Source: Quercus robur (lineage: Eukaryota > Streptophyta > Magnoliopsida > Fagales > Fagaceae). From it: a stretch of DNA of 64,000 bases. The position numbers and the translations under genes were made by a program. Positions 25,833 through 64,000 of the stretch are shown piece after piece; position 1 is the stretch's first letter, and every line of letters starts with the position of its first letter. The stretch lies in assembly GCF_932294415.1 (NCBI RefSeq), contig NC_065539.1, forward strand, positions 33,482,001 to 33,546,000, in the 5' to 3' direction. The notes beneath the pieces were generated by a model. It did not search any database. It saw nothing but the letters and a program-made list of their open reading frames with translations, and was not told where the DNA came from.

Positions 25833-28741
<2,909 letters not shown>

Positions 28742-33698: not shown

Positions 33699-34832
33699 AG
33701 GAATTGCATGTCCATGAGATCAATGGGATATCATAATGCTGGACCAGTCTAATCCTCCATAGATCTAAAAATTTTATAATATATATTGGTATAATTTATT
33801 TATTTTTTGATAATCAATTGTTTGGTTTATGATTTTGAAATTTGAAGAGACAAGATATTTTGGTTTGACATAGATGTTGGATTTTCTTGAGAAACCAAGC
33901 AGATTTAGTTATTGTCCACCCAATATCATATTTTTGTAACGTCAATTATTGTTGTACACACTGAGTTACACACTGTCGTACACACTTAGCTGAAATCGTG
34001 TTTTCAAAACACAATTTCATTTGTGTGTCCTGTACACACGGTCTACAACTATCACAACTCTTTATATCAATTAGAGCTATTGGTTGTGAGGCCCACCCCA
34101 TAGAGAGAAAGTATTGACCATGAAGTATGAACCCTACTGGTATAGTAAAGAGTAAAAACTTAATAAGCTCATTTTGAGGTGAGGAAAATATGGGTTGCAA
34201 AGTCCAATCTGTGAAGTGAAGTCTGTGTAGCCCGTTTGATTTGAAAAGTGACCCATTTGCATGACAAGAAGTAGAGTAAAACACCAACTCGTAATCATAT
34301 AGACAATTAATTGGGCTCTTTGCCTTAGGCCTTGCACATGTTTGGTCCAATTTTTATGTTAGGTGAGATTTGTATTTATTGACAAAATGAGAGGTGCCAT
34401 GTGGCTAAAAAAATCCTTTGACCTTCGACATTTCAAAATTTTTTTTTTCTCTCAAACTAGAATCATAACTTTTGTCTCAATTCTAATGTAGCAAATGGGT
34501 GAGTGACTGTCTATCATTTTTACATGTACTTACTAATTTTTTTCTACCACTATCACATCAAAATTGTAGTAAAAATTATGACACAAAAGATGTCTCTATA
34601 GGTTTTTTTTTTATCTATCTTTTTCCTCCCTCCATTCTAATTAATACCATTGCTTCCAATTAGTCGTGGTTTTTCTTCCTTTTCGGTATTAGTGGTTCAA
34701 CTCTTGGTGATCCGAAATCCTTTTTCAGAGGCCCATATCCAGTTGAAAATTTCAGCCACCCAATGCCTATTTCAAAGCAGAAATACAAGCCTGCTCCTTA
34801 CATCAACAAACACGTACTTATGTATAGACTTC

Positions 34833-34871
34833 CACGTGTCACTTCTTTATGGACCTCTAACTGCTATAAAT
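34833..34871 (+). promoter_or_regulatory. KIN/LEA copy 1 promoter: G-box and TATA
   Basis: TCCACGTGTCAC holds CACGTG at 34833-34838, an ABRE-type G-box, and TATAAAT follows at 34865-34871, about 86 bp before the ATG. Stress genes of this family are usually ABA- and drought/cold-induced, which fits. Copies 2-4 have lost the central C of the box. Confidence 0.7.
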
Positions 34872-34956
34872 ACTTAAGAAAACAAGGCATAATAACATTG
34901 AGATCAAGAAATTGAAAAAGTTGAAAACTTGGTTATATAACATTTTTCGAGCAAAG

Positions 34957-35298
34957 ATGGCCAGCGCAAAGCAAAATTACAAATCAGGTCAAGCCCATGG
35001 ACAGGGCCAGGTAGGAAAATTTTCCAATGGGGATTAAGTTATATTCTTTTAATTAGCCATGCTTTTTTTTTTTTTTTTTTTTTATGGGACTTTTATAATT
35101 TAACCATGTAAGCACTTAGCACCATATTTGTAAGAGCATTAGTATTAGGAGTTATATATGCAATTTTATACCATCAAACCACAAAATCAAAAGCATTACA
35201 TGGGATGTTATTTTTTAAAAATTTTGCAACCAAGCAGTAGCAAGATGGTATTTTTTTTTAAATAGTTTTTTATTCTCTCACATATTTTATATTATTTC

Positions 35299-35346
<48 letters not shown>

Positions 35347-36688
35347 TCTTTTTAAATAGTTTATTTATTTATTTATTGTCTCTCACCTCTTTTATATTAT
35401 TTTATTGTGTAGATATGATATTTTAATATAGGAAAATAAAAACTAGGACGTTGGGTATTGGGTATATTGTAAAGTTGGATGATATAATAAATAAAGTAGC
35501 TTTTTAAATGGTAAAATAGAATATTTTTTGCAATCCTAAATGCTAATGCTCGATGATATTGATTATTAACCGTTCATTTTGAGTAATGATTATTACATGT
35601 GTATATACCTCTCAAAAAAAAAAAATTTACATGTGTATATAGTATACATGCAATTTGTAATACAACAAGGCAAATGTTAAAATTATGTGGGTCATATTTA
35701 ATAAAAAAAATTGGATAAATGGGAGAAATTATATAAAGTTGACCCTAAAGCTTATAAAGTTAACAAAATACTGACATAAAGCCAAGTGGCTGACAAAATT
35801 CTGATATAAAGTGGTAAATTCTGACATAAAGTGGTGTATTAACGGGCACTTTATGGTGCCCATTCACACAACCCATATAACAATAACTAACCATTTATTT
35901 TTGTGTTTGGGCAGGCCAAGACTGAAGAGTGGGTTCAATCCACAAAGGACACAGCCAATGTAGCCAAAGACAAGACAACTAGTGCAGCTCAATCTACTAA
36001 AGACAGGACAGCTAGTGCAGTTCAATCAGCTCAGGAGTCTACCCAACATGGAAAGGATCAAAGTGCTGGTTTCCTCCAGCAGGTTCTCCCTTATTTTATT
36101 TTATTTTTCAAGGGATGTTACCAAATTCAATAGTCTCTAGACAAATAAAAATCCTCTAATATATCTTCTTATAATAAAGTAATCAAAGTTAAAAAATGAA
36201 AAAAAAAAAAAAAAAAAAAAAAAACTCAAACACATGATTGCTTCAATTAATTGAGTATAAAGTGGATCATCAAAAGTACGATAGAGTTTAGAAAATTTAC
36301 ATTCATTTGTAGTTTTATTAATAACATTTACACTTCATAAACATATATGGGTCGGTTTGGGTTTTACCCGTTGTCAGTCTTGTAGGGTATCTGAGTTAAA
36401 AATACAAAAACCCACACATATATGTTTACACTCAACTATGGACTTTTTTGCATCACATGCTATATTAGAATGAGAGATTTATAATTTATTAGACTTCTAG
36501 TGTAGCTTATATATAGAAAAAAATACATTTAAATGTTTATGCCTTGGATTTTAGGAAGATATTCATGGTGCAACATTGTTAATTTGTTCCTATAACAGAC
36601 CGGAGAACAGGTGAAGAACATGGCTCAGAACGCTGTAGACAGTGTGAAGAACACGATTGGAATGGTTGAAAATAACGCTAAGAAGTGA
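34957..36688 (+). CDS. KIN/LEA-like small hydrophilic stress protein, copy 1 (103 aa)
   Basis: Exons 34957-35010, 35915-36082 and 36599-36688 (18, 56 and 29 codons plus stop) join in phase 0 with GT-AG borders. The protein starts MASAKQNYKSGQAHGQGQ and continues with charged, Ala/Thr/Gln/Ser-rich 11-residue repeats (AKDKTTSAAQS, TKDRTASAVQS; residues 35-56). It ends TGEQVKNMAQNAVDSVKNTI...NNAKK. The head QNYKSGQAHGQ and tail QQTGEQVK...VDSVK match the layout of the small Arabidopsis KIN1/KIN2 and At3g02480 LEA-type proteins (about 66-68 aa), with an expanded middle. Such proteins are disordered, heat-soluble and accumulate in drought, cold and ABA treatment; the exact role here is inferred. 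No signal peptide or membrane segment. First of four near-identical copies and the only one with CACGTG in the promoter. Confidence 0.9.
35302..35343 (+). repeat. (CT)n microsatellite in intron 1 of copy 1
   Basis: About 20 CT units; the same site is variable in the other copies (very short in copy 2, about 29 units at 49893-49950 in copy 3, about 17 units at 61834-61868 in copy 4). Confidence 0.9.
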
Positions 36689-37924
36689 AAGAAAACACTT
36701 ATGTGTCTCTCATATTATGATGCTACATTAATGATTTAGGTTGTTTTTTTTGTTTGATTTTTCACCTAGGTTTTTGCTCTTCCTGACTAATTGGGACAAG
36801 CAACATAGCCGTTGAAGTGAGATTTCTTTTAAAAAAACTCCTCTCGGTTGTAATAAAGACATGTGCTTTTCATTATTTTTATTTTTCCCTTTTCATTATA
36901 ATATGAGATGTAATAAATGCTTAACAATAATACATATGTAAAGTTGATTTGTTTCACCTTCTTTAATATTTTTATGCATCCTCTCAATATATATGTGTGT
37001 GTGTGTGTGTGTAGAATTTCCCATTTTTTGTTAATGTTTCTAAGGATGTATAGCCAATTTGCCATACAAAACCAATTTAAGTGGCATATTCAATGTTTTT
37101 ATCTTCTTCTTTGTTTAGAGAACTTATTTTCATTAATTTATTATGTCTAAAAAATAATATTGGCTAAAAGAAGGCCGTATTTAGAAAGTAATGGTATGTT
37201 TGGTATGGTGTAATAACTCTTGTAGTGGAATAAGTTTTTTGGTAAACAAGAGACTATATTAATTTAAAGCAATAAAGTTTGGGCAGAGCTTCTTAGGATA
37301 CATGCTAATGGCATCAAAGTATAAAAGCATTACAATGTCTGAAGGCGGACAAACAAAGCTAGTAACATCTTCTTGTTGATGCGCCATTCTTAGCCAATAT
37401 GTCTGCACATTGATTAGCTTCCTAGTAACAGTAATTAACCTTCACCTTTGGAATTGATCCCAAAAGGTAGCTGTAGTTTGACATAAGGAGTGTGAGCAGT
37501 GTTTATATAGGAATTGCATGTCCATGAGATCAATGGGATATCATAATGCTCGACCAGTCTAATCCTCCATAGATCTAAAAATTTTTAATATATATCGGTA
37601 TAATTTATTTATTTATTATTAATCAATTGTAATGTAAAATTACAGATGACAATTGTTAGTTATAGGTTGGCTAATTCCTATGTCAACAAGTGTTTAAGAA
37701 GATTGTATTCAAATAACTTGGTTATGTATAAGTTGAGTCAAGAAATAGCTTGGAAAGATCTAGTTTCAAAAAACTTGCTTGGGAAATTTTATTCTCACTT
37801 GAGCAAACTCAAAATACAAAGTTTACTTGACCTTTGCATAAGCAATATAATGATTAGGAGTGTCCACAAATTGGGTTTGGTCGGATTGCCCACCAACCTG
37901 CTCGCAACTGGTGGAACATGAGTT

Positions 37925-38877
37925 CAACAGTAAAATTTCTAATTAAATGAGAGTAAACATGAATGCATGTTGATTAAAAAAAGAGAAAATTATGAGTCCC
38001 GATTTCTTTTAGACTTCTTGATGATTAAGAATTAGACTGATGAAGAGGCTGTGCTCATACTCTTTCAAGTGTTCGCATGGGGAACAAAGGTATGTTAATC
38101 TCATACACATGGTGTCTCCATGAACTTACTAATGAGTATAGCTAAACTATACTCATGCCTTCCAAACCATAGAGCTCAACTAACCCAATGAAAGTACATG
38201 AGTTTGGTTTATGATTTTGAAATTTGAAGAGACAAGCTATTTTGGTTTGACATAGATGTTGGATTTTCTTGTGAAACCAAGAAAATTTAGTTATTGTCTA
38301 CCCCATATCATATTTTTGTAACGTTAATTATTGTTGCACACATTGAGTTACACACTGTCATACACATTTAGCTGAAATTGTGTTTTCAAAACACAATTTT
38401 TAACAGTAAAATTTCTAGTTAAATGAGAGTAAACATGAATGCATGCTGATTAAACAAGAGAAAATTATGAGTCCCAATTTCTTTTAGACTTGTTGATGAT
38501 TAAGAATTAGACTAATGAAGAGGTTGTGCTCATACCCTTTCAAGTGTTCACATGGGGAACAAAGGTATGTTAATCTCACACATGTGGTGTCTCCATGAAC
38601 TTACTAATGAGTATAGCTAAACTATACTCATGCCTTCCAAACCATAGAGCTCAACTAACCCAATGAAAGTACATGAGTTTGGTTTATGATTTTGAAATTT
38701 GAAGAGACAAGCTATTTTGGTTTGACATAGATGTTGGATTTTCTTGCGAAACCAAGCAAATTTAGTTATTGTCCACCCCATATCATATTTTTGTAACGTT
38801 AATTATTGTTGCACATATTGAGTTACACACTGTCATACACATTTAGCTGAAATTGTGTTTTCAAAACACAATTTCAT
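37925..38877 (+). repeat. 476-bp tandem duplication inside unit 2
   Basis: GAGTAAACATGAATGCATG occurs at 37951 and 38427, and the following sequence stays aligned through the CACATTTAGCTGAAATTGTG stretch. Unit 3 has a single copy, so the event is private to unit 2. Confidence 0.85.
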
Positions 38878-39537
38878 CTCTGTGTCTTGTACACACGGTC
38901 TACAACTATCACTACTCTTTACATCAATTAAAGCTATTGGTTGTGAGGCCGAGAGAGAGTATTGACCATGAAGTATGAAGTATGAACCCTACTGGTGTAG
39001 TAAAGAGTAAAAACTTAATAAGCTCATTTTGAGGTGAGGAAAATATGGGTCGCAAAGTTTGATCCGATCCGTGAAGTCTGTGTCGCCCATATGATTTGAA
39101 AAGTGACCCATTTGCATGACAAGAAGTAGAGTAAAACACCAACTTGTAATCATATAGACAATTAATTGGGCACTTCGCCTTAGGCCTTGCACATGTTTGG
39201 TCCAATTTTTATGTTATGTGAGATTTGTATTTATTGACAAAATGAGAGGTGCCACGTGGCTAAAAAAGCCTTTGACCTTCGACATTTCAATTTTTTTTCT
39301 TCTCAAACTAGAATCATAACTTTTGTCTCAATTCTAATGTAACAAATGGGTGAGTGATTGTCTATTATTTTTACATGTATTTACTAATTTTTCTCTACCA
39401 CTATCACATCAAAATTGTGGTAAAAATTATGATGCAAAAGTTGTCTCCACAGGTTTTTTATCTATCTTTTCCTCCATTCGTTCTAATTAATACCATTGCT
39501 TCCAATTAGTCGTGGTTTTTATTCCTTTTTGGTATTA

Positions 39538-41709
39538 AAGCATCCATAGCAGTGGAGCTAATAATTTAGCTATTTGGCACCACAAAAAGTTACTTTATCT
39601 ATTTTACTTACTCACTTTACAAAACACCCAGTAGCGGTGGATCTATTTTAGCTTTTAACACAATAAAATAATATATCTACTACAATAAAATAATATATCC
39701 ACTATAATAAACAACAATCACAACTACCATAACCGCTACTGCTGCCACTATCGCCGCCCCCATTGCTACCGCCACCAACTCTTCCACTGCCACCGCCACA
39801 TGATAGCAAATAATCGTTTAGTGTTAACAAGTGATTTTTTAACCCGAAATTATACTTATACATTTTTTTTTTTACTAAAACAATTTCTCAATCATCATAA
39901 TAGCAAATAATTATCTAGTGTAACAATAATATTTTGTTTTAACCCCAAATTATATATATACAAAATTTATCTTCTTTTTTTTAAAATCTTTTTTGAGAAA
40001 CAAACACACACAAAAGAGAGGGAAAAGAGTTATAACACAAAGGCACATCACAACTCATCCACTCAAAAGCCATGATAGTTGAGTTGAGTATATTAAAAAA
40101 AAAAAAAAAAGTCTAAAACGCCACCGTTTAAAAAATAAAGAAAGCTAGGTACAAGTTGAATTTTTTTTTTCATTTAACATTAAATTGCTAAGAATTTCGT
40201 TAGTTGCCCAGTTTCAAAACAAAGTGGAAAAGTAGCATCTCGAGTTTTTAAAACTCGAGTTCAGGGTAGAAATCGTGTTTCTAATACTCGAGATCCTGAG
40301 CTACAAGCATCTGACATGGACTTTTTTCCACGTGGAGCCACGTTGAAATCGAGTTTCTAATACTCGATTTGTGATCATATTGGCACTTAAGCATCCAGAC
40401 TCCAAAACACAAGAACTCTCCTTCACACCCAAACATACAAACCCCAAACCTGAAACAAGCGCATCTCATCGGCGGCAAAAAATTCATCGGTGGTAGAAAA
40501 CCCATTGGCAAACCCTCACTCTACCAGAGACAAGTGCATCTCATCGGCAGTAGAAAACCCATTGGCGGACGCTTAAGTGTTCTAGAATATGATCACCTCA
40601 CTCTGCTCTCTCACTATCTCGCACTGAGGTCACTGTCTCGCACTCAGCTCTATCACTACTCCTATTTATTCATTATCAAACCACATCTATCCCCTAGAAA
40701 TTTTGTTTTTCCCCTATTTCCACATAACCCCAAACCAGATACATAAAACACTTGGAGTTTTATTCCGGTAGAAATCGAGTCTTGCAGACTCGAGATCAGT
40801 GGCATTTCTCATTGAAAATCGAGTCTTAAAGACTTGGTTTTGCTTTGTAAAACTTGAGTCTATAAGACTCGAGATCTATGTGGCATAATAGTGCATAATA
40901 GTGTCCAACTCAACAAGTAGGAAGCGAGTCTTTAAGCTTCAAGTTTCATAAGGAACTCAAGTTTCTAAAACTAGAGATGCTAGTTTCTAAAACTCAAGAT
41001 GCTAGTTTCTAACTATCTTTCAAACGTGTGTTAACTTGCTATATTCTATCCCTTTACTATGCTAGAACCCAAATATCCTCGCATGAGTTCATTAAATGGT
41101 TTAAAATAATAGTTTAAAACCACATAGTATTATTAAAGTATATTATAATATAATATAATATAAATCTTGGCACTATGTCTTCTTCTTCGAAATCAAGCTG
41201 CAGACGTTTCTATTGAAAAGAAAAAAAATAAAGAAAGCTAGGCAGCAAAGACCATAGATCGGAGTTGCTAGTTTGGGCAGGCGATGTTAGCCTAGTGCTT
41301 TGTGCAGATCAGCTCCCGAAGCCGTTCTTCTTGTTCATGATTCTCAGCTAGCCCACGTTTCTTCATCTTTGTTGGGAAAAATTGAGAAAGATAACAAAAA
41401 CTGAGACTAATAGATGAATTTGGTGGTAAAGGGGTATCTGATGAGAAGAGAAAAAAAATGAGAAGGAAAAAAAGAAGAAAGTAGAGAGAGAGAGAGAGAG
41501 AATGATTTTTTAATGAGAAAAAAGAGAAAATTTTAGTAAAATATTATTTTTTTTAGCTTTTTGCTACCGTGCACAACCATAAAGAGTTGTGCACTGTAGC
41601 AAAAAACTAAAATTTTTTACCTATAATACCATTACTGCAGCATGCATTTTTGTGTTTTGGTGAAGCTAAAATAGCTATATAGCTATTTAGCTTCACTGCT
41701 ACTAATGCT
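39538..41709. mobile_element. PIF/Harbinger-like non-autonomous element in unit 2, 2.17 kb
   Basis: Inserted upstream of copy 2 at a site that is empty in unit 1 (GGTATTAGTGGTTCAACTC). The left end AAGCATCCATAGCAGTGGAG and the right end CACTGCTACTAATGCT form an inverted pair; the left TTA duplication is at 39535-39537. Near the right end a 25-bp inverted repeat (41553-41577 / 41586-41610, two mismatches) contains GCTAC(C/A)GTGCACAAC. GCCGCC/ACCGCC-rich bits lie near 39735-39805. No transposase. Confidence 0.75.
40158..41080. mobile_element. Palindrome module, 923 bp, nested in the Harbinger-like element
   Basis: Flanked by 9-mers GTACAAGTT (40149-40157) and GCATGAGTT (41081-41089); unit 4 has GCACAAGTT on the right. 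Unit 3 carries a single uninterrupted GCGCAAGTT (48787-48795), the empty site. A 9-bp duplication suggests a Mutator-like family. Inside are CTCGAG...CTCGAG imperfect palindromes near 40238-40262, 40280-40297, 40350-40376, 40766-40795, 40815-40835, 40855-40885 and 40960-40985. No coding domain. Confidence 0.65.
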
Positions 41710-41849
41710 GGTTCAACTCTCGGTGATCCAAAGTCCTTTTTCATAGGCGTTGCCAATTTCAACCACCTAATGCCTATTTCAAAGCAGAAATACAAGCCTA
41801 CTCCTTACATCAACAAACACGTACTTATGTATAGCATAATTCCTGACTT

Positions 41850-41890
41850 CCATGTGTCACTTCTCTATGGACCTTTAACTGCTATAAATA
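41850..41890 (+). promoter_or_regulatory. KIN/LEA copy 2 promoter
   Basis: The position of copy 1's G-box reads CCATGTGTCAC here (CATGTG), an E-box/MYC-like core without the ACGT of an ABRE. TATAAATA lies at 41883-41890. An extra CATAATTCCTG segment lies just upstream, also present in copies 3 and 4. Confidence 0.6.
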
Positions 41891-41974
41891 CTTCTAAAAA
41901 CAAGGCAGAATAACATTGAGATCAAGAAATTGAAAAAGTTGAAAACTTGGTTATATAACATTTTTTGAGCAAAG

Positions 41975-43692
41975 ATGGCCAGCGCAAAGCAAAATTACAA
42001 ATCAGGTCAAGCCCATGGACAAGGCCAGGTAGGAAAATTTTCCAATGGGGATTAAATTATATTCTTTTAATTAACCATGTTTTTTTTATGGGACTTTTAT
42101 AATTTAACCATGTTAGCACTTAGCACCATATTTGTAAGAGCATTAGTTTTAGGAGTTGTAAAACTCCCAATATGCAATTTTATACCATCAAACCACAAAA
42201 TCAAAAGCATTACTTGGGATGTTATTTAAAATAAAAAATTGCAACCAAGCTATAGCAATATTTTGCAACCAAGCAGTAGCAAGATGGTATTTTCTTTTAA
42301 ATAGTTTTTTATTGTCTCTCACATATTTTATATTATTTCTAATTCTCCTAATCTCTCTCTCTCTCACATTATTGTCTCTCACCTCTTTTTAAATAGTTTT
42401 TTTTTTTTATTGTCTCTCACCTCTTTTGGGTTATATTATTTTATTGTGTAGATATATTATTTTAATATAGGAAAATATAAACTAGGACATTGGGTATTGG
42501 GTGTATTGTAAAGTTGGATGATATAATAAATAAAGTAGCTTTTTAGATGGTAAAATAGAACATTTTTTTGCAATCTTGAATGCTAATGCTTGAAGATATT
42601 GATTATTGACTATTCATTTTGAGTAATGATTATTACATGTGTATATAGTATATATGTTATTTGTAATACAACAAGGCAAATGTTAAAATAATGTGGGTCA
42701 TATTTAATAAAAAAAAAATTGGATAAATGGGAGAAATTGTATAAAGTTGACCCTAAAGCTTATAAAGTTAACAAAATACTGACATAAAACTAAGTGGTTG
42801 ACAAAATTCTGATATAAAGTGGTAAATTATAACATAAAGTGGTGTGTTAACGGGCACTTTATAGTGCCCATTCACACAACCCATATAACAATAACTAACG
42901 ATTTATTTTTGTGGTTGGGCAGGCCAAGACTGAAGAGTGGGTTCAATCCACAAAGGACACAGCCAATACAGCCAAAGACAGGACAGCTAGTGCAGCTCAA
43001 TCTGCTAAAGATAGGACAGCCAGTGTAGCTCAATCAGCTCAGGAGTCTGCCCAACATGGAAAGGATCAAAGTGCTGGCTTCCTCCAGCAGGTTCTCCCTT
43101 ATTTTATTTTATTTTTCAAGGGATGTTACCAAATTCAATAGTCTCTAGACAAATAAAAATCCTCTAATATATCTTCTTATAATAAAGTTATTAAAGTTAA
43201 AAAATGAAAAAAAAAAAAAAAAAAAAATCAAACGCATGATTGCTTCAATTAATTGAGTATAAAGTGGATCATCAAAACTACGATAGAGTTTAGAAAATTT
43301 ACATTCATTTGAAGTTTTGTTAATAACATTTGCACTTCATAAACATATATGGGTTGGTTTGGGTTTTACCCGTTTTAGGTCTTGTAGGGTATCTGAGTTA
43401 AAAATACAAAAACCCACACACATATGTTTACACTCAACCATGGACTTTTTTGCATCACATGCTATATTAGAATGAGAGATTTATAATTTATTAGACTTCT
43501 AGTTGAGCTTATATATAGAAAAAAAAATACATTTAAATGTTTATGCCTTGGATTTTAGGAGTATATTCACGGTGCAACATTGTTAATTTGTTCCTGTAAT
43601 AGACCGGAGAACAGGTGAAGAACATGGCTCAAAACGCTGTAGACAGTGTGAAGAACACGATTGGAATGGCTGAAAATAATGCTAAGAAATGA
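41975..43692 (+). CDS. KIN/LEA-like small hydrophilic stress protein, copy 2 (103 aa)
   Basis: Exons 41975-42028, 42923-43090 and 43603-43692, the same lengths and phases as copy 1. Exon 1 is identical in protein sequence. The middle repeats read AKDRTASAAQS and AKDRTASVAQS, closer to a regular 11-mer LEA consensus than in copy 1, and the tail has MAENNAKK. The reading frame is intact with all splice sites. Family and presumed role as for copy 1: a disordered desiccation/cold protein of the cytoplasm or nucleus. Introns keep over 90% resemblance to those of copies 1, 3 and 4 by eye, so the duplication is recent. Confidence 0.9.
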
Positions 43693-49355: not shown

Positions 49356-49439
49356 CTTCAGAAAACAAGGCAGAATAACATTGAGATCAAGAAATTGAAA
49401 AAGTTGAAAACTTGGTTATATAACATTTTCTGAGCAAAC

Positions 49440-49521
49440 ATGGCCAGCGCAAAGCAAAATTACAAATCAGGTCAAGCCCATGGGCAGGGCCAGGTAGGAA
49501 AATTTTCCAATGGGGATTAAG

Positions 49522-49553
<32 letters not shown>

Positions 49554-49889: not shown

Positions 49890-49954
<65 letters not shown>

Positions 49955-50763: not shown

Positions 50764-50795
<32 letters not shown>

Positions 50796-52588: not shown

Positions 52589-53015
52589 ATTTCAATGTTT
52601 TTATCTTCTTCTTTGTTTAGAGAACTTATTTTCATTAATTTATTATGTTTAAAAAATAATTTTGGATAAAAGAAGGTTGTATTTAGAAAGTAATGGTATG
52701 TTTGGTATGATGTAATAACTCTTGTAATGGAATAAGTTTTTTGGTAAACCAGAGACTATATTAATTTAAAGCAATAAAGTTTGGGCAGAGCTTCGTATGA
52801 TACATGCTAATGGCATCAAAGTATAAAAGCATTACAATATCTGAAGGCGGACAAACAAAGCTAGTAAAATCTTCTTGTTGATATGCCCCATTCCTAGCTA
52901 ATATGTTTGCACACTGATTAGCTTCTAGTAATAGTAATTAACCTTCACCTTTGGAATTGATCCCAAAAGGTAGCTGTAGTTTGACATAAGGAGAGTGTGA
53001 GCAGTGTTTATATAG

Positions 53016-54616
53016 TATTAGAAGAAGATTTATTAAAAAAAAAAAGTTTTAGGTATAAAAAGAAATTATTTCTCTTCACCCCATTTGACATGTTTCTTAA
53101 AAGGAAATAAAAAGCGAGAGTGCCAACTTAAAAAGTAAACAAATATCTCTATTTCTCATCCAAGAATGCAAAAATATAGCTATATTTCTCATCCACGAAA
53201 GCAAAGATATCTATCTCGATTCTGATAAAAATAAGACAAAAAAAGGGGAGAAAATCCAAAATAAATCATAAAGATTTTCCCTTGTGACAAGTTAAATTTA
53301 GACTTTTTAATATTATCATTTTAAGCCCTAAACTTTATAAATTAGGACAATCTAACTCCTCCATCTATATTTATTGAAAACTACTAATGGAGTAACCTAT
53401 TTGATGGGAGAAAATTTTATATTACCCTTTATTACAGCTAAATAGTACCATTTTGTCTTGGATGGTTTGTCATTTTCTACATATTTAAGAATTAAGAGGG
53501 TAAAACACAATACAGAAATAGGACAGAGTATGGATGAGAGAGAGAGATGATATGGTAGAGTGGGCAAAATAGTTTCATTTGGATATAATAGTTGCTAAAA
53601 AATGTTCTAGACGTCTCTTTTAGTGGTTTGTAATAGAAATAGAGAAAGATTAAATTATCACGACTTATAAAGTATAAATTAAAAATGACCAAAAATTAAA
53701 AAGTAAGAATATAATTTGTCACAAGGAGGATAGGAGGACAACTATGAAATTTTTTTTTGAACTTAAACAAATAAAGAAAGATATGAATAGCACAAAGACA
53801 AAACATCTTGACAAAAAATATTGTTTTCTACCCTAAAATTTGCATGAATTTTTTTTTTTTGTTTAATCCTTAAACTATTCAAAATGGTACATATTTTATT
53901 TTTCCTTCCATTCTCATTTATTTTATCCTATCTATCTAAATGGGTCTCACTAATTTTAGTATTAGAGAGTTCGACGTGGACTATTACATTTGATAAAAAG
54001 GCCAAAAAGAAAGAATACATAGGAGACGAGCAAGTAGCATGAAACTATTGGTCACAAGTAGATACAAAAGTTTATTATTATTATTTTTTAAATTTAAGGA
54101 AAAAAAAAGAGATTTTTCAAGTTCTTTTTAAAATTCAAAGAAAAAATTGTGACATTTTGGAAAACAATATTGATAAAAGTTAATAAATGCTTTAAGAACA
54201 TTGATTTAAGAAACTTTTTAGAAATTTTTTATATGAAAAGAAAAAATTTATTAATTTTTTTTGACAAACTTTCATATTTTGTATCAAAAATTTTCTAAAA
54301 TAATTTATTAATAATTGCCACTCATTAATAAAACCCAAGAATATTTTAGTTCGAAATATCTATTATTCTTTCTTTCAAAAAAAAAAACGAATTCCCAAAA
54401 CGCAGTGAAATTTGGCAGGACGCATATAGTATGATCTCAAAGTATCTAGGACGACCGTTGGCCACGTGGCTCTTTGGCTCTGCACTCTACTTCATTCTCA
54501 GAGCTTCCATTCTCACTTACGTGGATGTGCACAATAAGCCCATTTCCTCATAAACAACCCCCCCTCCCCCCTTTATTATACAAAATTACACAAACTGCCA
54601 CTACCACACACTACCA
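53016..54616. other. Single-copy-looking gene-free DNA right of unit 3
   Basis: AT-rich to about 54400, then more GC-rich from 54410, with GGCCACGTGGCTC (about 54470) and CTTACGTGGATGTG (about 54517). These ACGT-containing boxes look promoter-like and may have belonged to the plus-strand gene now starting at 58238, before the LINE landed between them (inference). Confidence 0.4.
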
Positions 54617-57600
54617 CTTTTTTGATGAAAATATGATTCATTAAAAACTAGGAAACAACAACATTCTCAGTACAGATCCTATTCACAAACATCCCATTGA
54701 GGTCATCCTCAACAACATCTATTAAGTCCACAGGCGGACTATCAAAGGTAGCAAAATCAGAATCTAGACAATAACTCATCCTAGCAAGACTATCCGCACA
54801 TTTGTTCGCCTGACGGAAGCAATGCTTAATACAAACTTGAGGTATGCGAGATATCAAGAGCCTGCAATCATCCAATAAAGGTGATATGATGTTATTAATA
54901 TATGAAGGATTTCCTAAGGCATCCATAATAGACTTGGCATCAAGCTCAATTTCAAGAGAAGTAACGTTGAGGTTGCTGCATAGAAGAAGGCCCTCCCATA
55001 ATCCCCACAGCTCAGCCGCAAAGCTGTTTGTCAAGCCAATACTCCTACAAAACCCAATAATCCACCTACCTGCATCATCCCTAACCACCCCTCCATAACC
55101 TGCCAAACCGGTACTGCCACAAAGGAGCCATCTGTGTTAAGTTTCCACCACCCTTGAATCGGCTTCTCCCATCTAATCCTCATCATGACATTTCGGGTCA
55201 GCACCCTTGGAGAGGAAAGGCAATGAAAGAATTCTTCAGCTTGATTAACAATCACCAAAGCAAGCTTCGGGTTCTTGCTTTTGCCATTGAAAACCAAGTT
55301 GTTTCTACTCTTCCAAACATTCCACACAACAAAGGGAAAAACAACTTTCCAAGGCGGATGAGTAGCACCTAAGTTGTGCTTCAATTTACTATTTAACATC
55401 AACCAATCTTGAAGGTTGCTCCTCCAAAAGGCATGATTAGAGGGTAACACCCCCAGCTGGTTCCATAAGCCTCTAAGCAGTGGGCAGTCCCTAAGGGCAT
55501 GCAAAATGCTTTCTGCTCCTTCCTGGCATAAGGGGCAAATAGTATCAAGACTAACACCCCTCCTCTCAAGGCACACCTTTACTCCAATGCTATTATGAAT
55601 GCATTTCCACAGAAAAGTTCTAATCCTTAGAAGAGTATTCACTTTCCAAATCCAATAAGCTGAGAATGACTCTGTACAATCAGCCCCCATGGCAATCCTA
55701 TAGGCACTCTTCAAATCAAAGGTGCCTTTAGGAGACCCCGACCATGCCAACTTGTCAACACCTCTACTCAAAATCGTCACTAGGGTTGCTTGAATCACCC
55801 TTTTAACTTCTAAAGGAAGCTCAAAAGGAATCTTCCCCCAATCCCAACCCGTATCCGTCATAAGGTCTTTAACTTCTAGATGGCTAGCCTCCCTTGTGAT
55901 AGGACCCTGAATCAACCTTCTAAGAGAACCTCCATTTGTCCACTTATTATGCCACACATTTAGCCCACTATCCCTACCAACCAACCACCTGCTCCCCTTG
56001 TTGAAAGTATCCATACCTTTTTTCATTGCAGCCCATATGTGAGAACAAGGAAGCTTATTGGCATTAACAACAATTCTTCTTCTCTGATTATAATATTTCA
56101 GCTTCAAAACTCTAGCCCAAGGGGCCTCATTTTCAGTGTGGAACCTCCAATTAAGCTTAGATAATAGCGCTATATTCTTGCCCTTCGCTGAATGCAGCCC
56201 AAGCCCCCCTTCCTCCTTAGACTTTGTCACCTTCTCCCAACCAACCGAATGAATCTTCTTGGCTGCCTCCGTCGATCCCCAAAGGAAATTCCGGTTAATT
56301 CTATCTAACCCATCCAAAATTCTGCCAGGCAAATAAGTACATTCCATAACGTATGAAGGTATTGCAGCCAAGGAGGCTTGTACAAGAACAGTCTGCCCCG
56401 CCAAAGAGAGCATGTTAGCCTTCCAACCCGAGAGTTTTTGTTTCACTCTATCAAGAATGAAATTGTACTCCTGAGTTGAAGAGCCAGGATGCTTTAGAGA
56501 AAAGCCAAGATACTTCCCCAAGAAAGGTGTGGAGGCAAAACCAAGAATGTCACAAAGGGATTCCCTAGTATCTTTGTCTACATTTGGAGAGAAATAAACT
56601 CTCAACTTAGCTTCACTTACTGATTGCCCAGATAATTCAAAAAACTCATCAAGAACATCTCTAATGGCGGAACAATTTACCCAATCCGCTTTAGCAAAGA
56701 AGATGAGATCATCTGCAAAGAGCAAGTAAGAGAATTCAGGACCACTTTGAGAGGCTCTAACTGGCTGCCACGTCTTCGTATTACACTTCTCTTCTATTAA
56801 CTGACCAAGAAAGTCCATACAAATGATGAAAAGATATGGGGAAAGCGGGTCACCTTGCCTTATTCCTCTAGAAGGAAAAATCGGATCTAAGGCTTCTCCA
56901 TTAAACAAGATGGAAGTGGAGACCGTCGATACACAACTCATTATGACATCTATGAGCTTTGTGGGAATATTAATCCTAAGAAGCAAGTTTCGAATAAAAC
57001 CCCACTCAAGTTTGTCATAAGCCATCTCCAAATCTATCTTCAAAGCCATGTACCCCGTCTTCCCTCTCTTTTTCCCCAGGGAATGAATTATCTCTTGAGC
57101 AATGATGACATTGTCAATACCTTTTCTACCCGGGACAAACGTCGTCTGTAAGGGGGATATAAGCTTATCCAAGAAAGGTCTCAACCTTGCCACAATAATC
57201 TTGGTCACCACTTTATACACCGTGTTACAAAGGCTAATAGGTCTATAATTACCTAAAGTCTCAGGACCTTGGATCTTAGGAATCAAAGCAATAAGAGTTT
57301 TATTTCAAATGCTCAGGCATTGTCCCACTCCTAAAAATCTGAATAACTTCCTCAACCAAAGAGTCTCCCACAAGCGGCCAAAATTTTTGGAAAAAACCAG
57401 CATGAAGTCCATCCGGACCCGGCGCTTTGAAAGGTTTTAAGGACCACAAGGCAGCCTTAATTTCTTCCTTAGTCACCTCTCCACCTATGCTCTCTCTATC
57501 CCCATCCGAGAGTCTAATCTGACCTTGCAACATGATAGGGTCTTCCCTTAAAGCACTCTCATGAGACGTCGAGTATATCCCATTGAAACCACTTCTAATA

Positions 57601-58199
57601 AACTCTTTAACGTCACTTTCCTCATGAATCCACTCCCCCATTGCATTTTTGATTGCCATGATCTGATTCCTTTTCCTCCTAACCAACGTCGAAACATGAT
57701 AGAAAGCTATATTACGATCACCCTGAACCATCCAATTAACCCGAGACTTTAACGCCCATAACTCCTCCTCTTGATTGAGAACAAGATCAAGATCCCTAAG
57801 GAGATCCTCTTCCAACTCAAGAAGAAAACTAGAAGGTTTGATAGCAATAGCCCTCTGAATACCATTGATCCTAGCCATCAAAAATTTTTTCCTAGTAAAA
57901 ATATTCCCGAACTAATTTTTATTCCAAGCCATAACATTCCTAGTGAAGCTATCAACGGCCTCAATAAGATTATTTGCCCCTCCCCATGCTTGAGAAACAA
58001 CATCAGGGAAAGTAGGGTCTAACAACCAGCACGTTTGGAACCTAAACGGCCTCTTCTTACCACCACTTGAACCTAGTTGCATCTCTAACAGAATAGGGCA
58101 GTGATCAGAATGATACCTAGGAAGATGGGTAATTATTGCATACGGGTAAAGCAAGCACCACTTAGGATTCACAAAGAACCTATCTATCCTCTCTTGAAA
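54617..58199 (-). mobile_element. L1-type LINE, 5'-truncated, 3.6 kb
   Basis: Read on the minus strand: the end of the endonuclease (HSDHCPILLEMQ, about 58115), RT start KAPGPDGLHAGFFQKFWP (about 57420), IPKIQGPETLGNYRPISLCN (57280), LQTTFVPGRKGIDN, KIDLEMAYDKLEW, RQGDPLSPYLF, the catalytic YLLFADDLIFF (about 56710), a Cys/His zf-RVT region (CPLCQEGAESILHALRDC, about 55500) and a C-terminal RNase H domain (LNTDGSF, AELWGLWEGL). One in-frame stop lies near 57913, a one-base insertion near 57295 and a frame change near 55110; otherwise long frames of 751 and 193 codons survive, so it is fairly young. The tail is a short T6 on the plus strand (54618-54623). No target duplication found. Confidence 0.9.
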
Positions 58200-58237
58200 A
58201 CCAAAACAATCAAAACCTCACTCTCACTCACTCTTTC

Positions 58238-59135
58238 ATGGCCACGGCCATGGCCACGCACCTCCAATCCCATCACTGCGTCTCCCCCAAGTTCCCTTAT
58301 CTCCGAAACACTAACCTCACTCCTCGATTCTCGTCTCTTTTTCCCAGGAAAGTTAGGGTTCTCATGTTCCGGGAAAAGTTCAGAAGCCGAGACCGAGTGT
58401 TCTACTTCGTTTGTTGCTTCCGTAAAAACAATTCCGAAATCGAAACAATTTCGGATGACGAGAACGAGAATGAGCGGCCTCCTTTTGATCTTAATCTTGT
58501 CGTCGTTCTTGCTGGTTACGCATTCGAAGCCTACACTAGCCCCCCTGTAAATGCTTTTTTCTTTTCAAATTGTTTAAGAATTCATATATATATATATATA
58601 TATATAGCGTTTGAAACAAATAGAAATTCGAAGAATAACTAATAAGAGTAAAGAATTACGAGATTGAAAATTAGAGTATTGGATATTGAATTTTGTTTTT
58701 TGAAAATTTATTATTTTAATTTTTCTTAATATGCTTCAAGAGATACAAGATTGAAAAAATGACTATTGGATTTTGAAAAAAATGTTTCAGTGCTAGGCGA
58801 TCAGTAGAAAATTAAGTACAGAAGCATATTAAACGCTACACTAAAAATTCAACTTAACTAGGCCTTGTACTTTAATTTTATCTGAGTTATATAAAATTGC
58901 GCAAATTATTTATTTATTGGAATACAGATAACATAATGCAAGAGAAAAAAAAAAGTTAAAAATTTACTTATTATTGGCATTCTTGGGAAATTAGTCAGTA
59001 GAGAATTACTTAAAGAAGTGTTTGGTTTTGATCAATTCTGGTGCGATCTTATGTGTTGATTTTAATTTTTGTTCAGGAAAATGTTGGAAGGTGTGAAGTT
59101 GATGCTGCAGGTTGTAAGGCAGTGTATCTTTCGGA
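58238..59135 (+). CDS. First two exons of a gene for a probable plastid protein (3' part not visible)
   Basis: Exon 1 is 58238-58546 (103 codons, donor GTAAAT) and exon 2 is 59077-59135 (acceptor TTCAG, donor GTATGT, ending in phase 2). The first about 70 residues are Ser/Arg/Phe-rich with few acids (MATAMATHLQSHH...), a typical chloroplast transit peptide. Then comes an acidic stretch (ETISDDENENE), followed by RPPFDLNLVVVLAGYAFEAY and ENVGRCEVDAAGCKAVYLSE. The latter pieces recall the N-terminus of plant plastid C2-domain/lipase-class-3 proteins (HIL1-like), but this is from memory and tentative. Downstream exons are absent: a SINE, a LINE scrap and the broken edge of unit 4 follow. It is either cut off or continues beyond the window. 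Confidence 0.6.
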
Positions 59136-59203
59136 GTATGTGTTAATTTTCTGTATTAATAGTTAAAGGCTTAGTGTATCTGTTGTTATTATTAAAAGTA
59201 TGT

Positions 59204-59418
59204 AACCGCAAGGGGTTGGCTTAGTGGTTCCTAAGGCCTCATGATATCCATGAGATCTTGGGTTCAAAACCTCTTGCCAGTATCTTGTGGCCATCTCATA
59301 AGATTCCTTCCTGTAATAACCTAGTGTGTGTGAGACAGAGGGATTGCATACATGCGAGGGAATGGTCAGATACTTGAAGAGTTGGACACCCTCATTTGTA
59401 AAAAAAAAAAAAAAAAAA
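59204..59418 (+). mobile_element. tRNA-derived SINE with perfect TSDs
   Basis: The perfect 10-bp duplication AAAAGTATGT lies at 59194-59203 and 59415-59424 (the second overlaps the A tail). Box A is TGGCTTAGTGG (59217-59227), box B GGTTCAAAACC (59261-59271), and the 3' end is an A tail from about 59399. It is a different family from the SINE at 2045. It lies in what would be intron 2 of the truncated plastid-protein gene. Confidence 0.88.
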
Positions 59419-59499
59419 GTATGTTATTTATATTATGGAGGTGTGTCACTAGTGTGAAATATGGAGAAGCATAGGGGAGGAAGGGTGGACAACATGGAT

Positions 59500-59765
59500 A
59501 GTTAGAGGGTTGCATGGGGTTGGTTTATGGAAGAGCATTAAAGGGATTGAGAAAGTAAAAGGAGGTTATTCAATATCCATAGCCATTGTGGGTTTTATTA
59601 CTTTCTTCCATTCCATCCTCTCATAAGAAATTAGGACGTATTTTCTGAACAAATCAAAATTCTAGTGAGCAATGGTTTGCAAATCCTTTGTTGGCACAAT
59701 CTATGGTGTGGTGAGTCTTCCATAAAGGACCTGTTCCTTGATCATTTTACTTTGTAGACAATAAA
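59500..59765 (+). mobile_element. LINE fragment at the left edge of unit 4
   Basis: Plus-strand frames read HGVGLWKSIKG (about 59512-59544) and WHNLWCGESSIKDLFLDHFTL (about 59692-59754), standard phrases of the post-RT region of plant L1 ORF2. Boundaries are approximate; it ends where homology to unit 2 begins. Confidence 0.65.
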
Positions 59766-59767
59766 AC

Positions 59768-61189
59768 TTTGTGATCATATTGGCACTTAAGCGTCCAAAC
59801 TCCAGAACACGAGAACTCTCCTTCACACCCAAACATACAAACCCCAAACCTGAAACAAGCACATCTCACTCTACCGGAGACAGGTGCATCTCATCGGCAG
59901 TAGAAAATTCATCGATGGTAGAAAACCCATTTGCAAACCCTCACTCTACCTGAGACAAGCGCATCTCATCGACAGTAGAAACCTATCCGCAGCAAAAAAC
60001 CCATTGGCGGACACTTAAGTGTTCTGGAATATGATCACCTCTCTCAGCTCTCTCACTATCTCGCACTGAGGTCACTGTCTCGCACTGAGGTCACTGTCTC
60101 GCACTCAGCTCTATCACTACTCCCATTTATTCATTATCAAACCACATCAATCCACTGGAAATTTTGTTTTTCCCTCATTTCCACATAACCCCAAACCAGA
60201 TACATAAAACACTTGGAGTTTTATTCCAGTAGAAATCGAGTCTTGCAAACTTGAGATCAGTGGCATTTCTCATTGAAAATCGAGTCTTAAAGACTCAGTT
60301 TTGCTTTGTAGAACTTGAGTCTTTAAGACTTGAGATCTATGTGGCATAATAGTGCATAATACTGTCCAACTCAGCAAGTAGGAATCGAGTCTTTAAGCCT
60401 CGAGTTTCAAAAGGAACTTGAGTTTCTAAAACTCGAGATGCTAGTTTCCAACTATCTTTCAAACGCGTGTTAACTTACTATATTCTATCCCCTTACTATG
60501 CTAGAACCCAAATATCCCTGCACAAGTTCATTAAATGGTTTAAAAATAAAAGTTTAAAACCACACAATATTATTAAAGTATATTATAATATAATATAATA
60601 TAAATCCTGGCACTATGTCTTCTTCTTCAAAATCAAGTTGCAAACGTTTCTATCGAAAAGAAAAAAAATAAAGAAAGCTAGGCAGCAAAGACCATAAATT
60701 GGAGCTGCTGGTTTGGGCAGCCGATGTTAACCTAGTGCTTTGTGCAGATCAGCTCCCAAAAGTCGTTCTTCTTGTTCATGATTCTCAGCTAGCCCACATT
60801 TCTTCATCTTTGTTGGAAAGAATTGAGAAAGATAACAAAAACTGAGACTAATAGATGAATTTGGTGGTAAAGGGGTATCTAATGAGAAGAGAAAATAGCG
60901 AAAGAGAAAAAAAAAATGAGAAGGAAAAAAAGAAGAAAGAAGAGAAGCCGGAGAGAGAGAGAGAGAAAGAAAAGAGAAAATGATTTTTTAATGAGAAAAA
61001 AGAGAAAACTTTAATAAAATATTATTATTTTTTTAGCTTTTTGCTACCGTGCACAGCCATAAAGAGTTGTGCACTATAGCAAAAAACTAAAATTTTTTAC
61101 CTATAATACCACTACTGCAGCATGCATTTTTGGGTTTTGGTGAAGCTAAAATAACTATATAGCTATTTAGCTTCACTGCTGCTAATGCT
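59768..61189. mobile_element. Left-truncated Harbinger-like element with partial palindrome module in unit 4
   Basis: The right part of the same insertion as in units 2 and 3. It contains the right-hand CTCGAG palindromes (about 60235-60445), the module's right edge followed by GCACAAGTT (60520-60528), and the GTGCAC hairpin (about 61035-61090). A CGCACTGAGGTCACTGTCT segment is doubled near 60062-60105 relative to unit 2. Confidence 0.72.
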
Positions 61190-61330
61190 AGTTCAACTCT
61201 CGGTGATCCAAAGTCCTTTTTCATAGGCGTTGCCAATTTCAGCCACCCAATGCCTATTTCAAAGCAGAAATACAAGCTTGCCCCTTACATCAACAAACAC
61301 GTACTTATGTATAGCATAATTCTTGACTTC

Positions 61331-61380
61331 CATGTGTCACTTCTCTATGGACCTCTAACTGCTATAAATACTTCAGAAAA
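61331..61380 (+). promoter_or_regulatory. KIN/LEA copy 4 promoter
   Basis: CATGTG at 61331-61336 where copy 1 has CACGTG, and TATAAATA at 61373-61380. Confidence 0.6.
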
Positions 61381-61454
61381 CAAGGCAGAATAACATTGAG
61401 ATTAAGAAATTGAAAAAGTTGAAAACTTGGTTATATAACATTTTCTGAGCAAAG

Positions 61455-61829
61455 ATGGCCAGCGCAAAGCAAAATTACAAATCAGGTCAAGCCCATGGAC
61501 AGAGCCAGGTAGGAAAATTTTCCAATGGGGATTAAATTATATTCTTTTAATTAACCATGTTTTTTTTTATGGGACTTTTATAATTTAACCATGTCAACAC
61601 TTAGCACCATATTTGAAGAGCATTAGTTTTAGGAATTGTAAAACTCCCAATATGCAATTTTATACCATCAAACCACAAAATCAAAAGCATTACTTGGGAT
61701 GTTATTTTTTAAAAAATTTGCAACCAAGCTACAACAATATTTTGCAACCAAGCAGTAGCAAGATGGTATTTTTTTTTTAAAATAATTTTTTATAGTCTCT
61801 CACATATTTTATATTATTTCTAATTCTTC

Positions 61830-61872
<43 letters not shown>

Positions 61873-63718
61873 TATTGTCTCTCACCTCTTTTTAAATATT
61901 TTTTTTATTGTCTCTCACCTCTTTTGGGTTATATTATTTTATTGTGTAGATATATTATTTTAATATAGGAAAATATAAACTAGGACGTTGGGTATTGGGC
62001 ATGGTTGTCAAAATCCCGTTCTGGATTTTACGATCCTACGATTTTACGATCTCACCTACCCAAAACGATCTAAATCTTTCAAGGATCTTTGCGATCGTTC
62101 AGGATTGGTAAGATCGTACGATTTTGACAATCCCAAACAACCTTGGTTTCTTGTAATCTTCTTTAACTTGATAGAAGGCTCAGTTGGACCCAAATGAAAA
62201 ATAAATCCCAATAGATCAAGTTTTTCCACTCTAATATAGAGAGAGTATCAGTTAGACTCAAATAAAAAATATTTCAATAAAGTGTCACATTTTGAGATTT
62301 TTGGCATCTTTAAATAATGCTACAAATGAATGTAGTAATGTATGGTAATTATATTAATGAATGTATAATTTATGTGATTATTTAACATACCAATATGTAT
62401 TTTTTGTTTTTTTCTCAAATAATGTAGGATCTTACGATCCACGATCCGATCCTACGATCCACGATCCCACCTACCTCCCACGATCCTATGTAGGATCCCG
62501 ATTTTGACAACCTTGGTATTGGGTGTATTGTAAAGTGGAATGATATAATAAATAAAGTAGTTTTTTAGATGGTAAAATAGAACATTTTTTGCAATCTTGA
62601 ATGCTAATGCTTGAAGATATTGATTATTGACTATTCATTTTGCGTAAACATGTGTATACAGTATACATGTTATTTGTAATACAACATGGCAAATGTTAGA
62701 ATAATGTGGGTAATATTTAATAAAAAAAATTGGATAAATGGGAGAAATTGTATAAAGTTGACCCTAAAGCTTATAAAATTAACAAAATACTGACATAAAG
62801 CTAAGTGGCTGACAAAATTCTGATATAGAGTGGTAAATTCTGACATAAAGTGGTGTGTTAACGGGCACTTTAAGATGCCCATTAACACAACCCATATAAC
62901 AATAACTAACCATTTATTTTTGTGTTTGGGCAGGCCAAGACTGAAGAGTGGGTTCAATCCACAAAGGACACAACCAATGCAACCAAAGACAGGACAGCTA
63001 GTGCAGCTCAATTTGCTAAAGACAGGACAGCCAGTGCAACTCAATCAACTCAGGAGTTTGCCCAACATGGAAAGGATCAAAGTGCCGGCTTCCTCCAGCA
63101 GGTTCTCCCTCATTTTATTTTATTTTTCAAGGGATGTTACCAAATTCAACAATCTCTAGACAAATAAAAATCCTCTAATATATCTTCTTATAATAAAGTA
63201 ATCAAAGTTAAAAAATGAAAAAAAAAAAAAAAAAAAAACTCAAACGCATGATTGCTTCAATTAATTGAGTATAAAGTGGATCATCAAAACTACGATAGAG
63301 TTTAGAAAATTTACATTCATTCGGAGTTTTATTAATAATATTCACACCTCATAAACATATATGGGTTGGTTTGGGTTTTACTTGTTTTAGGTCTTGTTGG
63401 GTATTTGAGTTATTTCCTAACAAAGAAAAAAACAAAAACCCACACACATATGTTTACACTCAACTATGGACTTTTTTGCATCATATGCTATATCAGAATG
63501 AGAGATTTATAATTTATTAGACTTCTAGTTTTAGCGTATATATAGAAAAAAAATACATTTAAATGTTTATGTCTTGGATTTTAGGAGGATATTCACGGTG
63601 CAACATTGTTAATTTGTTCCTATAACAGACCGGAGAACAGGTAAAGAACATTGCTCAGAACGCTGTAGACAGTGTGAAGAACACGATTGGAATGGCTGAA
63701 AATAACGCTAAGAAATGA
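61455..63718 (+). CDS. KIN/LEA-like small hydrophilic stress protein, copy 4 (103 aa)
   Basis: Exons 61455-61508, 62934-63101 and 63629-63718. The frame and splice sites are intact, but it has more replacements than its sisters: HGQSQ for HGQGQ at the end of exon 1, AAQFAKDR and TQEFAQH (Ser to Phe twice) in the repeats, and VKNIAQN for VKNMAQN. Two aromatic changes in a disordered hydrophilic repeat suggest relaxed constraint. Intron 1 is 1.4 kb because a 515-bp MITE is inserted. Family and presumed role as for copy 1. Confidence 0.88.
62000..62514. mobile_element. Mutator-like MITE, 515 bp, in intron 1 of copy 4
   Basis: Flanked by the perfect 9-bp duplication GGTATTGGG (61991-61999 and 62515-62523). 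Terminal inverted repeats carry GGTTGTCAAAATC on both ends, and the subterminal parts are rich in inverted GATCCTACGATC-like words. Copies 1-3 keep the unoccupied intron; the single GGTATTGGG is intact in copies 1 and 2. No coding capacity. Confidence 0.88.
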
Positions 63719-64000
63719 AAGAAAAAACTTATTTGTCTCTCATATTATGATGCTACATTAATGGATTTAGGCTCTTTTTTTGTTGGTTTTTTCACCTAGG
63801 TTTTTGCTCTTCCTGACTAACAAGGACAAGCAACATTGCCATTGAAGTGAGATTTCTTTTAAGAAAACTCCCCTCGGTTGTAATAAAGACATTTGCTTTT
63901 CATTATAATTTGAGATGTAATAAAGGCTTAACAATAATACATATGTAAAGCTGATTTGTTTCATCTTCTTCAATATCTTTATGCATCTTCTCAATATATA

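Follow-up and report, generated by a model that had tools for sequence, protein, structure and literature searches.

HMA4 of Arabidopsis halleri reportedly stands among the clustered stress or metal genes that have undergone ectopic gene conversion, and the stress-related CBF/DREB1 genes of Medicago are likewise said to be clustered or in tandem. Unlike these arrays, the locus presented here, a five-copy, recombining tandem array of intact genes, displays two different joints and one hybrid gene type that can be read from its insertions. It begins in a 64,000-nucleotide stretch of Quercus robur DNA, called the window below (C6:33482001-33546000, in a genome of 785.7 Mb and 42 contigs; G+C content 34%), and its proteins, we presume, resemble stress proteins of the KIN1/KIN2 (COR6.6) type and of the late embryogenesis abundant (LEA) group 4-like kind, with a putative relation to the KIN genes of Arabidopsis. 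The likeness resides in a short, hydrophilic, Cys-free make-up rich in Ala, Lys, Gln and Thr, whereas the difference is seen in the searches: a Pfam scan of the protein of the first copy, unit 1, gave no family above its cut-off, LEA_4 (PF02987) reaching 10.5 bits against the 51.1 needed, and a PDB sequence search with the unit-2 protein gave no solved relative at E<=1. Since the unit-1 protein passes no Pfam cut-off, the KIN/LEA label denotes a resemblance. In the sections of a Brassica napus LEA survey drawn on here, tandem duplication accounts for 6 of 108 genes, a value of 40% is cited for Prunus mume, KIN1 does not occur and no hybrid copies are described (PMC4829847). A described KIN2 tandem array was absent from the literature matches listed, which is not proof of absence.

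The gene expansion at this locus is of an ordinary kind; what is unusual is how readily its history can be read. With a probability of about 80%, a short hydrophilic KIN/LEA-like gene has here given rise to a young tandem array that recombines, was formed by duplications at an ATAG and then at a TTTG joint, derives its units 4 and 5 from a hybrid of units 2 and 3, and is subject to weak selection and to mutation of the kind expected of DNA methylated like transposable elements. In the proposed course of events, a single-copy segment would have been duplicated at ATAG and one of the derived copies would have received a Tourist-like element; through unequal crossing-over or gene conversion within intron 1, a 5′ half of unit-2 type would then have been combined with a 3′ half of unit-3 type, and this hybrid, together with the original right flank, would have been duplicated at TTTG to yield units 4 and 5. 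The two joints, the 2/3 hybrid gene type and the fifth copy are additions to an earlier interpretation made from the letters of this DNA (the sequence-only reading), which had described four units with common joints, near-identical introns and a simple order of descent. In a small space, the locus preserves the growth history of a plant array: two microhomology joints with distinct endpoints and half-and-half genes are accompanied by transposon insertions that order the steps.

The units lie head to tail on the plus strand. Unit 1 (33701..37510, delimited by BLAST and breakpoint reading) starts just after the ATAG at 33697-33700 and ends in the ATAG of the first joint; it is followed by unit 2 (37511..44485) and by unit 3 (44486..53015), whose terminal ATAG (53012-53015) marks the right edge of the first duplication. 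ATAG is found at 33697, 37507, 44482 and 53012; matching tracts start at the first three of these positions, and the likeness of unit 3 to units 1 and 2 ends at 53015. This microhomology joint I links units 1/2 and 2/3. Units 3/4 and 4/5 are linked by joint II, placed after a duplicated right-flank spacer; its TTTG occurs at 59768 and 68608, the two copies of the joint, and likewise in the two parents, at 40368 (unit 2) and 90806 (terminal flank). Coordinates above 64000 refer to an extension of the window by 39 kb to the right on the same contig. The claim of common joints thus holds at 1/2 and 2/3 and fails at 3/4, and each of the two joints occurs twice. The left end of unit 4 (59768..64000, continuing to 65411) lies at joint II (TTTG 59768-59771), within a nested insertion. 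The spacer between units 3 and 4 (53016..59767) holds a long interspersed nuclear element (LINE) and has two more copies past the window, after units 4 and 5: without the LINE, this 6.75-kb stretch is repeated between units 4 and 5 and, in interrupted form, beyond unit 5, and the three copies differ mutually by 2.7-5.1%. Unit borders set early at 33820, 38677 and 45143 were dropped, and the ATAG joint defines the units instead.

All four genes in the window have exons of 54, 168 and 90 nt, GT-AG introns and an open 103-aa frame coding for the KIN/LEA-like protein, in agreement with the sequence-only reading: gene 1 (34957..36688; exons 34957-35010, 35915-36082 and 36599-36688), gene 2 (41975..43692; 41975-42028, 42923-43090 and 43603-43692), gene 3 (49440..51272; 49440-49493, 50480-50647 and 51183-51272) and gene 4 (61455..63718; 61455-61508, 62934-63101 and 63629-63718), all on the plus strand. 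These four are real genes, but the array does not end with them, a fifth intact gene with the same exon lengths and an open frame being located past the window edge (70284-70337, 71257-71424 and 71962-72051). Nor are the introns near-identical, as had been claimed: noncoding divergence in the gene blocks is 4.7-6.5%, and intron 1 measures 904, 894, 986 and 1,425 bp in genes 1-4, intron 2 516, 512, 535 and 527 bp. The five proteins are small, Ala/Lys-rich and devoid of Cys, with a grand average of hydropathicity (GRAVY) from -1.10 (gene 1) to -1.19, and share an Ala/Lys/Gln/Thr-rich composition with a repeated KDK/KDR-TA-SAAQS core. When the whole genome was searched at the DNA level with the gene body of unit 1, 40 of 54 candidates being scored, at least 44 matches appeared; five of them span essentially the whole query and all five belong to the array (C6:33517627-33554356). 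The remaining 39 are confined to intron 1, at query positions 44-265, and correspond to a dispersed repeat at about 35670-35891 of unit 1 and in its counterparts.

Units 4 and 5 look like descendants of a 2/3 hybrid, as judged from block alignments, which were used for the unit comparisons in place of one whole-unit MAFFT alignment. Upstream of the end of intron 1, they group with unit 2 by a nested insertion, a 6-bp deletion and base substitutions; from exon 2 onward, they group with unit 3 by an insertion resembling a solo long terminal repeat (LTR) and, again, by substitutions. Across the five units, the region 5′ of 35571 contains eight sites dividing units 1 and 3 from 2, 4 and 5 (13|245) and one dividing 1 and 2 from the others (12|345), and the region 3′ of 35854 contains 1 and 11, respectively (Fisher 0.0004). 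Comparison of four units leads to the same picture, with eight of nine 13|24 sites at or before 35571 and 13 of 15 12|34 sites from 35854 on (permutation of the best breakpoint, p=0.002). Among gaps of at least 5 bp, three in the 5′ block favour 13|245, and one 14-bp insertion in intron 2 favours 12|345. In the 3′ block and the 3′ flank, a grouping of units 4 and 5 with unit 2 is rejected by the approximately unbiased (AU) test (p=0.004 and p=0.0008, respectively), and units 2 and 4 differ at 24 of 817 sites in the 5′ part versus 66 of 1,106 in the 3′ part (p=0.002). The insertion markers, shared by units 2, 4 and 5 on one side and by 3, 4 and 5 on the other, conflict in the same direction as the site splits, and they are the strongest part of the case for a mosaic. 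Units 4 and 5 are the youngest pair: their divergence is 2.0, 2.4 and 2.7% in three blocks and rises to 3.1% in the 3′ flank and to 3.9% in the solo LTR. Scanned along their length, units 1-3 gave only p=0.02, with no clean single breakpoint.

The insertions that carry this argument have the following structure. In unit 3, a complete Tourist-like element of the PIF/Harbinger type (47927..49161; 1,235 bp) is flanked on both sides by the TTA target duplication, and its terminal inverted repeats match at 19 of 25 positions; unit 1 has the corresponding empty site with one TTA, and units 2-5 carry the element. The element is located close to the genes, its right end lying about 265-280 bases upstream of the start codon in units 2-4 (about 280 in unit 3). 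Its GAGCAT-type ends are, we assume, similar to those of mPing-type elements, from which it differs by its length of 1.2 kb without a long transposase frame, the open reading frames within it being short; it is therefore presumably non-autonomous. TTA target duplication and inverted repeats are features it has in common with Tourist-like elements such as mPing (PMC4561436). In unit 2, the element and the nested insertion together occupy 39538..41708 (right edge approximate), and the right end of the element has been lost through the 6-bp deletion that is common to units 2, 4 and 5. The nested insertion (40158..41089 in unit 2, about 0.93 kb, edges by eye) has poly-T at its left end, and its site is empty in unit 3; units 4 and 5 keep only its right part, and since unit 4 starts inside it, unit 4 has only the right part of the Tourist-like element. 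The left copy of its direct repeat, ACAAGTT, is present in unit 2 and the right copy in units 4 and 5, the right copy of unit 2 being imperfect. The solo-LTR-like insertion (51695..52588 in unit 3) has TGTTAGG...CCTAACA ends and an ATTTC direct repeat in unit 3, is present in units 3, 4 and 5 and is missing from the empty sites of units 1 and 2.

Several points weigh against the reconstruction of a hybrid and of its place in the history. In the AU test on substitutions of the 5′ block, the 3′ topology is not rejected (p=0.128), and the exons alone do not distinguish the trees; 30 of 1,000 simulations on a single tree reach the observed clustering statistic, while only 1 in 1,000 gives as many 13|245 sites, and the limits 35571 and 35854 were picked from the data themselves. 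Since unit 3 lacks the nested insertion, units 4 and 5 cannot be plain copies of it and at least one recombination step is needed, a step deduced rather than observed. Furthermore, in the 5′ block the clock outsider is unit 3 and not unit 1, so that further exchanges are needed, and, as no outgroup was available, the order of the oldest steps relies on the clock and on the Tourist-like element.

One competitor of the hybrid history is the account proposed in the sequence-only reading, where unit 1 split first and units 2-4 descend from one element-bearing copy; we regard it as improbable, although parts of it stand. The absence of the element from unit 1 and its presence in units 2-4 were correctly reported, and the presence extends to unit 5; with clock rooting, the 5′ flank places unit 1 outside 2+3 in 878 of 1,000 bootstraps (units 1-3), and between promoter and intron 1 unit 1 is distinguished from units 2-5 by five gaps of at least 5 bp, which fits either an early split of unit 1 or deletions private to it. 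From exon 2 to the 3′ end, the root falls on unit 1 in 571 of 1,000 bootstraps versus 367 for 1+2 against 3+4, a split result, and other blocks disagree: from the promoter to intron 1, unit 3 is the outsider (852/1,000, units 1-4), and in the 3′ flank units 1 and 2 come together (921/1,000, units 1-3; p=0.006 for the difference between the flanks). An early split of unit 1 is therefore partly supported, by the element and the 5′ flank and not by every block. Absence of the element is also not a one-way character, because Tourist-type elements generally excise precisely, according to the part of PMC4561436 consulted. Exon trees, suggested as part of a check on that history, are uninformative as said above, and the insertion markers conflict (2,4,5 versus 3,4,5), as do the site splits; as units 4 and 5 are mosaics, no single tree fits the array, and the proposed history is contradicted as a single-tree account in spite of the shared element. 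Around the ATAG joints, the blocks formed by the ends of units 1 and 2 (block C) and by the starts of units 2 and 3 (block D) are unusually similar, with 40 of 1,137 sites differing versus 116 of 1,952 elsewhere for units 1 and 2 (p=0.003), as expected if a later exchange duplicated the joint. Less credible than a simple tree is an assembly artefact in which some units, above all 4 and 5, would be alleles set in tandem: their divergence of 2.0-3.9% by block could fit the heterozygosity of an outcrossing plant, but neighbouring copies are told apart by insertions private to unit 4 (about 510 bp) and to the 3/4 spacer (the LINE), the three spacer copies all differ from one another, and the joints are precise, show microhomology and lie within a single contig of 54.6 Mb.

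As to the proteins, the frames appear to be held by weak but detectable purifying selection. Pairwise ratios of nonsynonymous to synonymous change (dN/dS), suggested by the sequence-only reading and calculated with the simple method of Nei and Gojobori (NG86), give omega values of 0.32-0.76 for the four units, and raw variability is alike in coding (36/312) and noncoding DNA (211/1,862). Both measures are misleading because coding DNA holds more of the mutable C/G and CHG sites; a neutral expectation was therefore derived from context-specific rates in the noncoding alignment, which predicts 38.8 missense, 14.2 synonymous and 4.8 stop changes, compared with 23, 14 and 0 observed (missense P=0.011, stops P=0.010, omega-like ratio 0.60). 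Accordingly, an interpretation of the coding sequence as free of constraint was dropped, and the view that intact frames signal selection survives in a weakly supported form. Of the CHG sites at which a transition would create a stop, 0 of 7 have changed, as against 20 of the 45 remaining CHG sites (one-sided p=0.025). No exon indels are present in the four units, where 6.6 would be expected from all gap events (P=0.001) and 2.2 when simple-repeat gaps are excluded (P=0.11). The locus is a warning against taking dN/dS between young plant copies at face value where hypermutable CHG sites distort it.

The pattern of C-to-T changes suggests that unit DNA, exons included, mutates as if it were methylated in CG and CHG contexts in the manner of transposable elements. 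In noncoding DNA of four units, such changes affect 18 of 33 CG, 20 of 49 CHG and 85 of 526 CHH sites; the coding table, built on five units with slightly different counting rules, gives 20 of 52 for CHG, 10 of 96 for CHH and only 3 of 12 for CG. The CHG odds ratio is 5.4 for the units combined, and comparable values are found for the Tourist element with its nested insertion (CHG 26/78, odds ratio 4.2) and for the solo LTR (19/43, odds ratio 5.4); an older solo-LTR pair has CHG 7/20 and CHH 33/134, with no significant excess. Of the spacer blocks, the one with an exon-like frame has CHG 4/62 and CHH 23/358 (odds ratio 1.0), which differs from the units (p=0.007), the block having been singled out after all three had been seen; the other two offer few sites, and their odds ratios are 3.8 (p=0.08) and 3.0 (p=0.20). 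The putative methylation, proposed from the CHG-biased C-to-T pattern, is challenged by block D, which has no CHG signal (CHG 1/16, CHH 9/196), and by the duplication at 22.6 kb, with CHG 2/12 and no significant excess.

Methylated sites mutate more in Arabidopsis lines, clearly so in CG and CHG (consulted part of PMC8145854), and exon methylation in these two contexts is termed transposable-element-like methylation (teM) in the corresponding part of PMC10550312, where, in maize, arrays of at least four have a higher share of teM among the copies of unmethylated genes (5.9% versus 1.5%). Among tandem duplicates of 43 angiosperms, teM is enriched in 19 and depleted in 14, and the unmethylated state is enriched in 39, as given in the sections of PMC10400039 used here; as tandem copies are thus more often enriched for unmethylated than for teM genes, a silent array is not the default expectation. 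The oak array is like the teM duplicates of these two studies, to the extent that their consulted sections describe them, in consisting of young duplicates under relaxed constraint, with the difference that methylation is here deduced (PMC10550312, PMC10400039). CHG transitions make up about 15 of the 23 missense changes, the counting rules of the two tables differing slightly. A rather speculative extension is that the genome might treat an intact, selected stress-gene array as transposons, that CG and CHG methylation might drive C-to-T change at CHG sites within exons, the silencing mark thereby supplying most of the amino-acid differences, and that the function might be carried by the copy with a clean upstream region and a box resembling an abscisic acid (ABA)-responsive element (ABRE). 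Should the methylation reading hold, the locus would be a test case for silencing marks that shape the proteins of duplicated genes.

Two further explanations concern these patterns. The genes could be decaying pseudogenes whose frames are open by the chance of youth, and this is rather unlikely: coding and noncoding variability are equal, variable coding sites are spread over the three codon positions as 12/9/15, missense and synonymous changes do not differ within CHG sites (15/34 and 5/11), and transitions in all contexts are similar (20/96 missense versus 13/48 synonymous, p=0.41), but the deficit of missense and stop changes argues against decay, as do the missing exon indels when all gaps are counted. 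In turn, the clustering of CHG changes in exon 2 could be due to exchange among the internal Ala/Lys repeats instead of methylation. The excess does sit in exon 2 (15/30 in four units, as against 1/8 in exon 1 and 3/12 in exon 3), and block D, although part of the array, is without it; yet the odds ratio is the same in noncoding unit DNA (5.35) and roughly alike in the solo LTR and in the Tourist element with its nested insertion. Repeat exchange seems a rather unlikely source.

As regards regulation, unit 1 carries an ABRE/G-box-like CACGTGTC on the plus strand (34833..34840), 124 bases before the ATG, and units 2-5 carry CATGTGTC at this place; another ACGT core and a TATAAA box are kept in all four window units. 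In a tobacco reporter assay, changes in the ABRE core alter activity more than changes in its flanks, and 90% of core variants show no significant change under ABA, according to the sections of PMC12805990 that were consulted. Unit 1 may be the likeliest ABA-responsive copy, a guess that we hold at even odds: it alone of the five has the ABRE-like box, and no element separates its promoter from the upstream region. A single motif found in a single unit is weak evidence.

Some insertions are private to single copies, as the sequence-only reading had noted in general terms; this is correct for the following three, and not for the shared nested and solo-LTR-like insertions. Unit 3 contains an LTR element (45519..47441) with 389-bp LTRs (K=0.045 between them) and a weak Ty3-capsid-like frame, under the Pfam cut-off. 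Unit 4 has an inverted-repeat insertion of about 510 bp (62003..62512) flanked by 9-bp GGTATTGGG repeats, which we take to be a Mutator-type pattern, and unit 5 is uninterrupted at this site. The LINE of the 3/4 spacer (54620..58196, minus strand, edges approximate) is missing from the 4/5 and terminal spacers and has reverse-transcriptase domains, with RVT_1 (E=2.3e-35) and zf-RVT (E=3.5e-14) at 55034-57304 and RVT_3 (E=1.1e-22) at 54651-55136. In its first part, unit 2 holds a local tandem duplication of 476 bp (37923-38398 and 38399-38874, 3.7% diverged), present as a single copy in the matching part of unit 3. About 570 bp near the left ends of units 2 and 3 (37631-38201 and 44604-45142) are missing from unit 1 (33819/33820), with neither inverted repeats nor target duplication seen at this difference, which may be a deletion in unit 1 or an insertion in units 2 and 3. 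An exon-like frame in the spacer (58238-58640, plus strand, and from 67075 and 85772 in the extension) is open in all three spacer copies and its window copy has no Pfam match; it may derive from an original neighbour gene, whose first exon would have been copied along with the array.

Scans for tRNA genes and Rfam families gave no matches. Adjoining frames at 16078-17780 (+) presumably resemble a hAT-type transposase, and two of them run against Pfam had no match. LEA_4 (PF02987) matches at E<=0.001 were found elsewhere in the genome, as six neighbouring hits at C35:7829688-7830287, one of which has an inner TAG. Part of a beta-amylase gene is located at 27890-28738 (+; Glyco_hydro_14, E=1.7e-56), and the frames to its left, from about 25476, we take to resemble its first exons. 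A 353-bp direct tandem duplication with 98% identity is present at 22605-23311.

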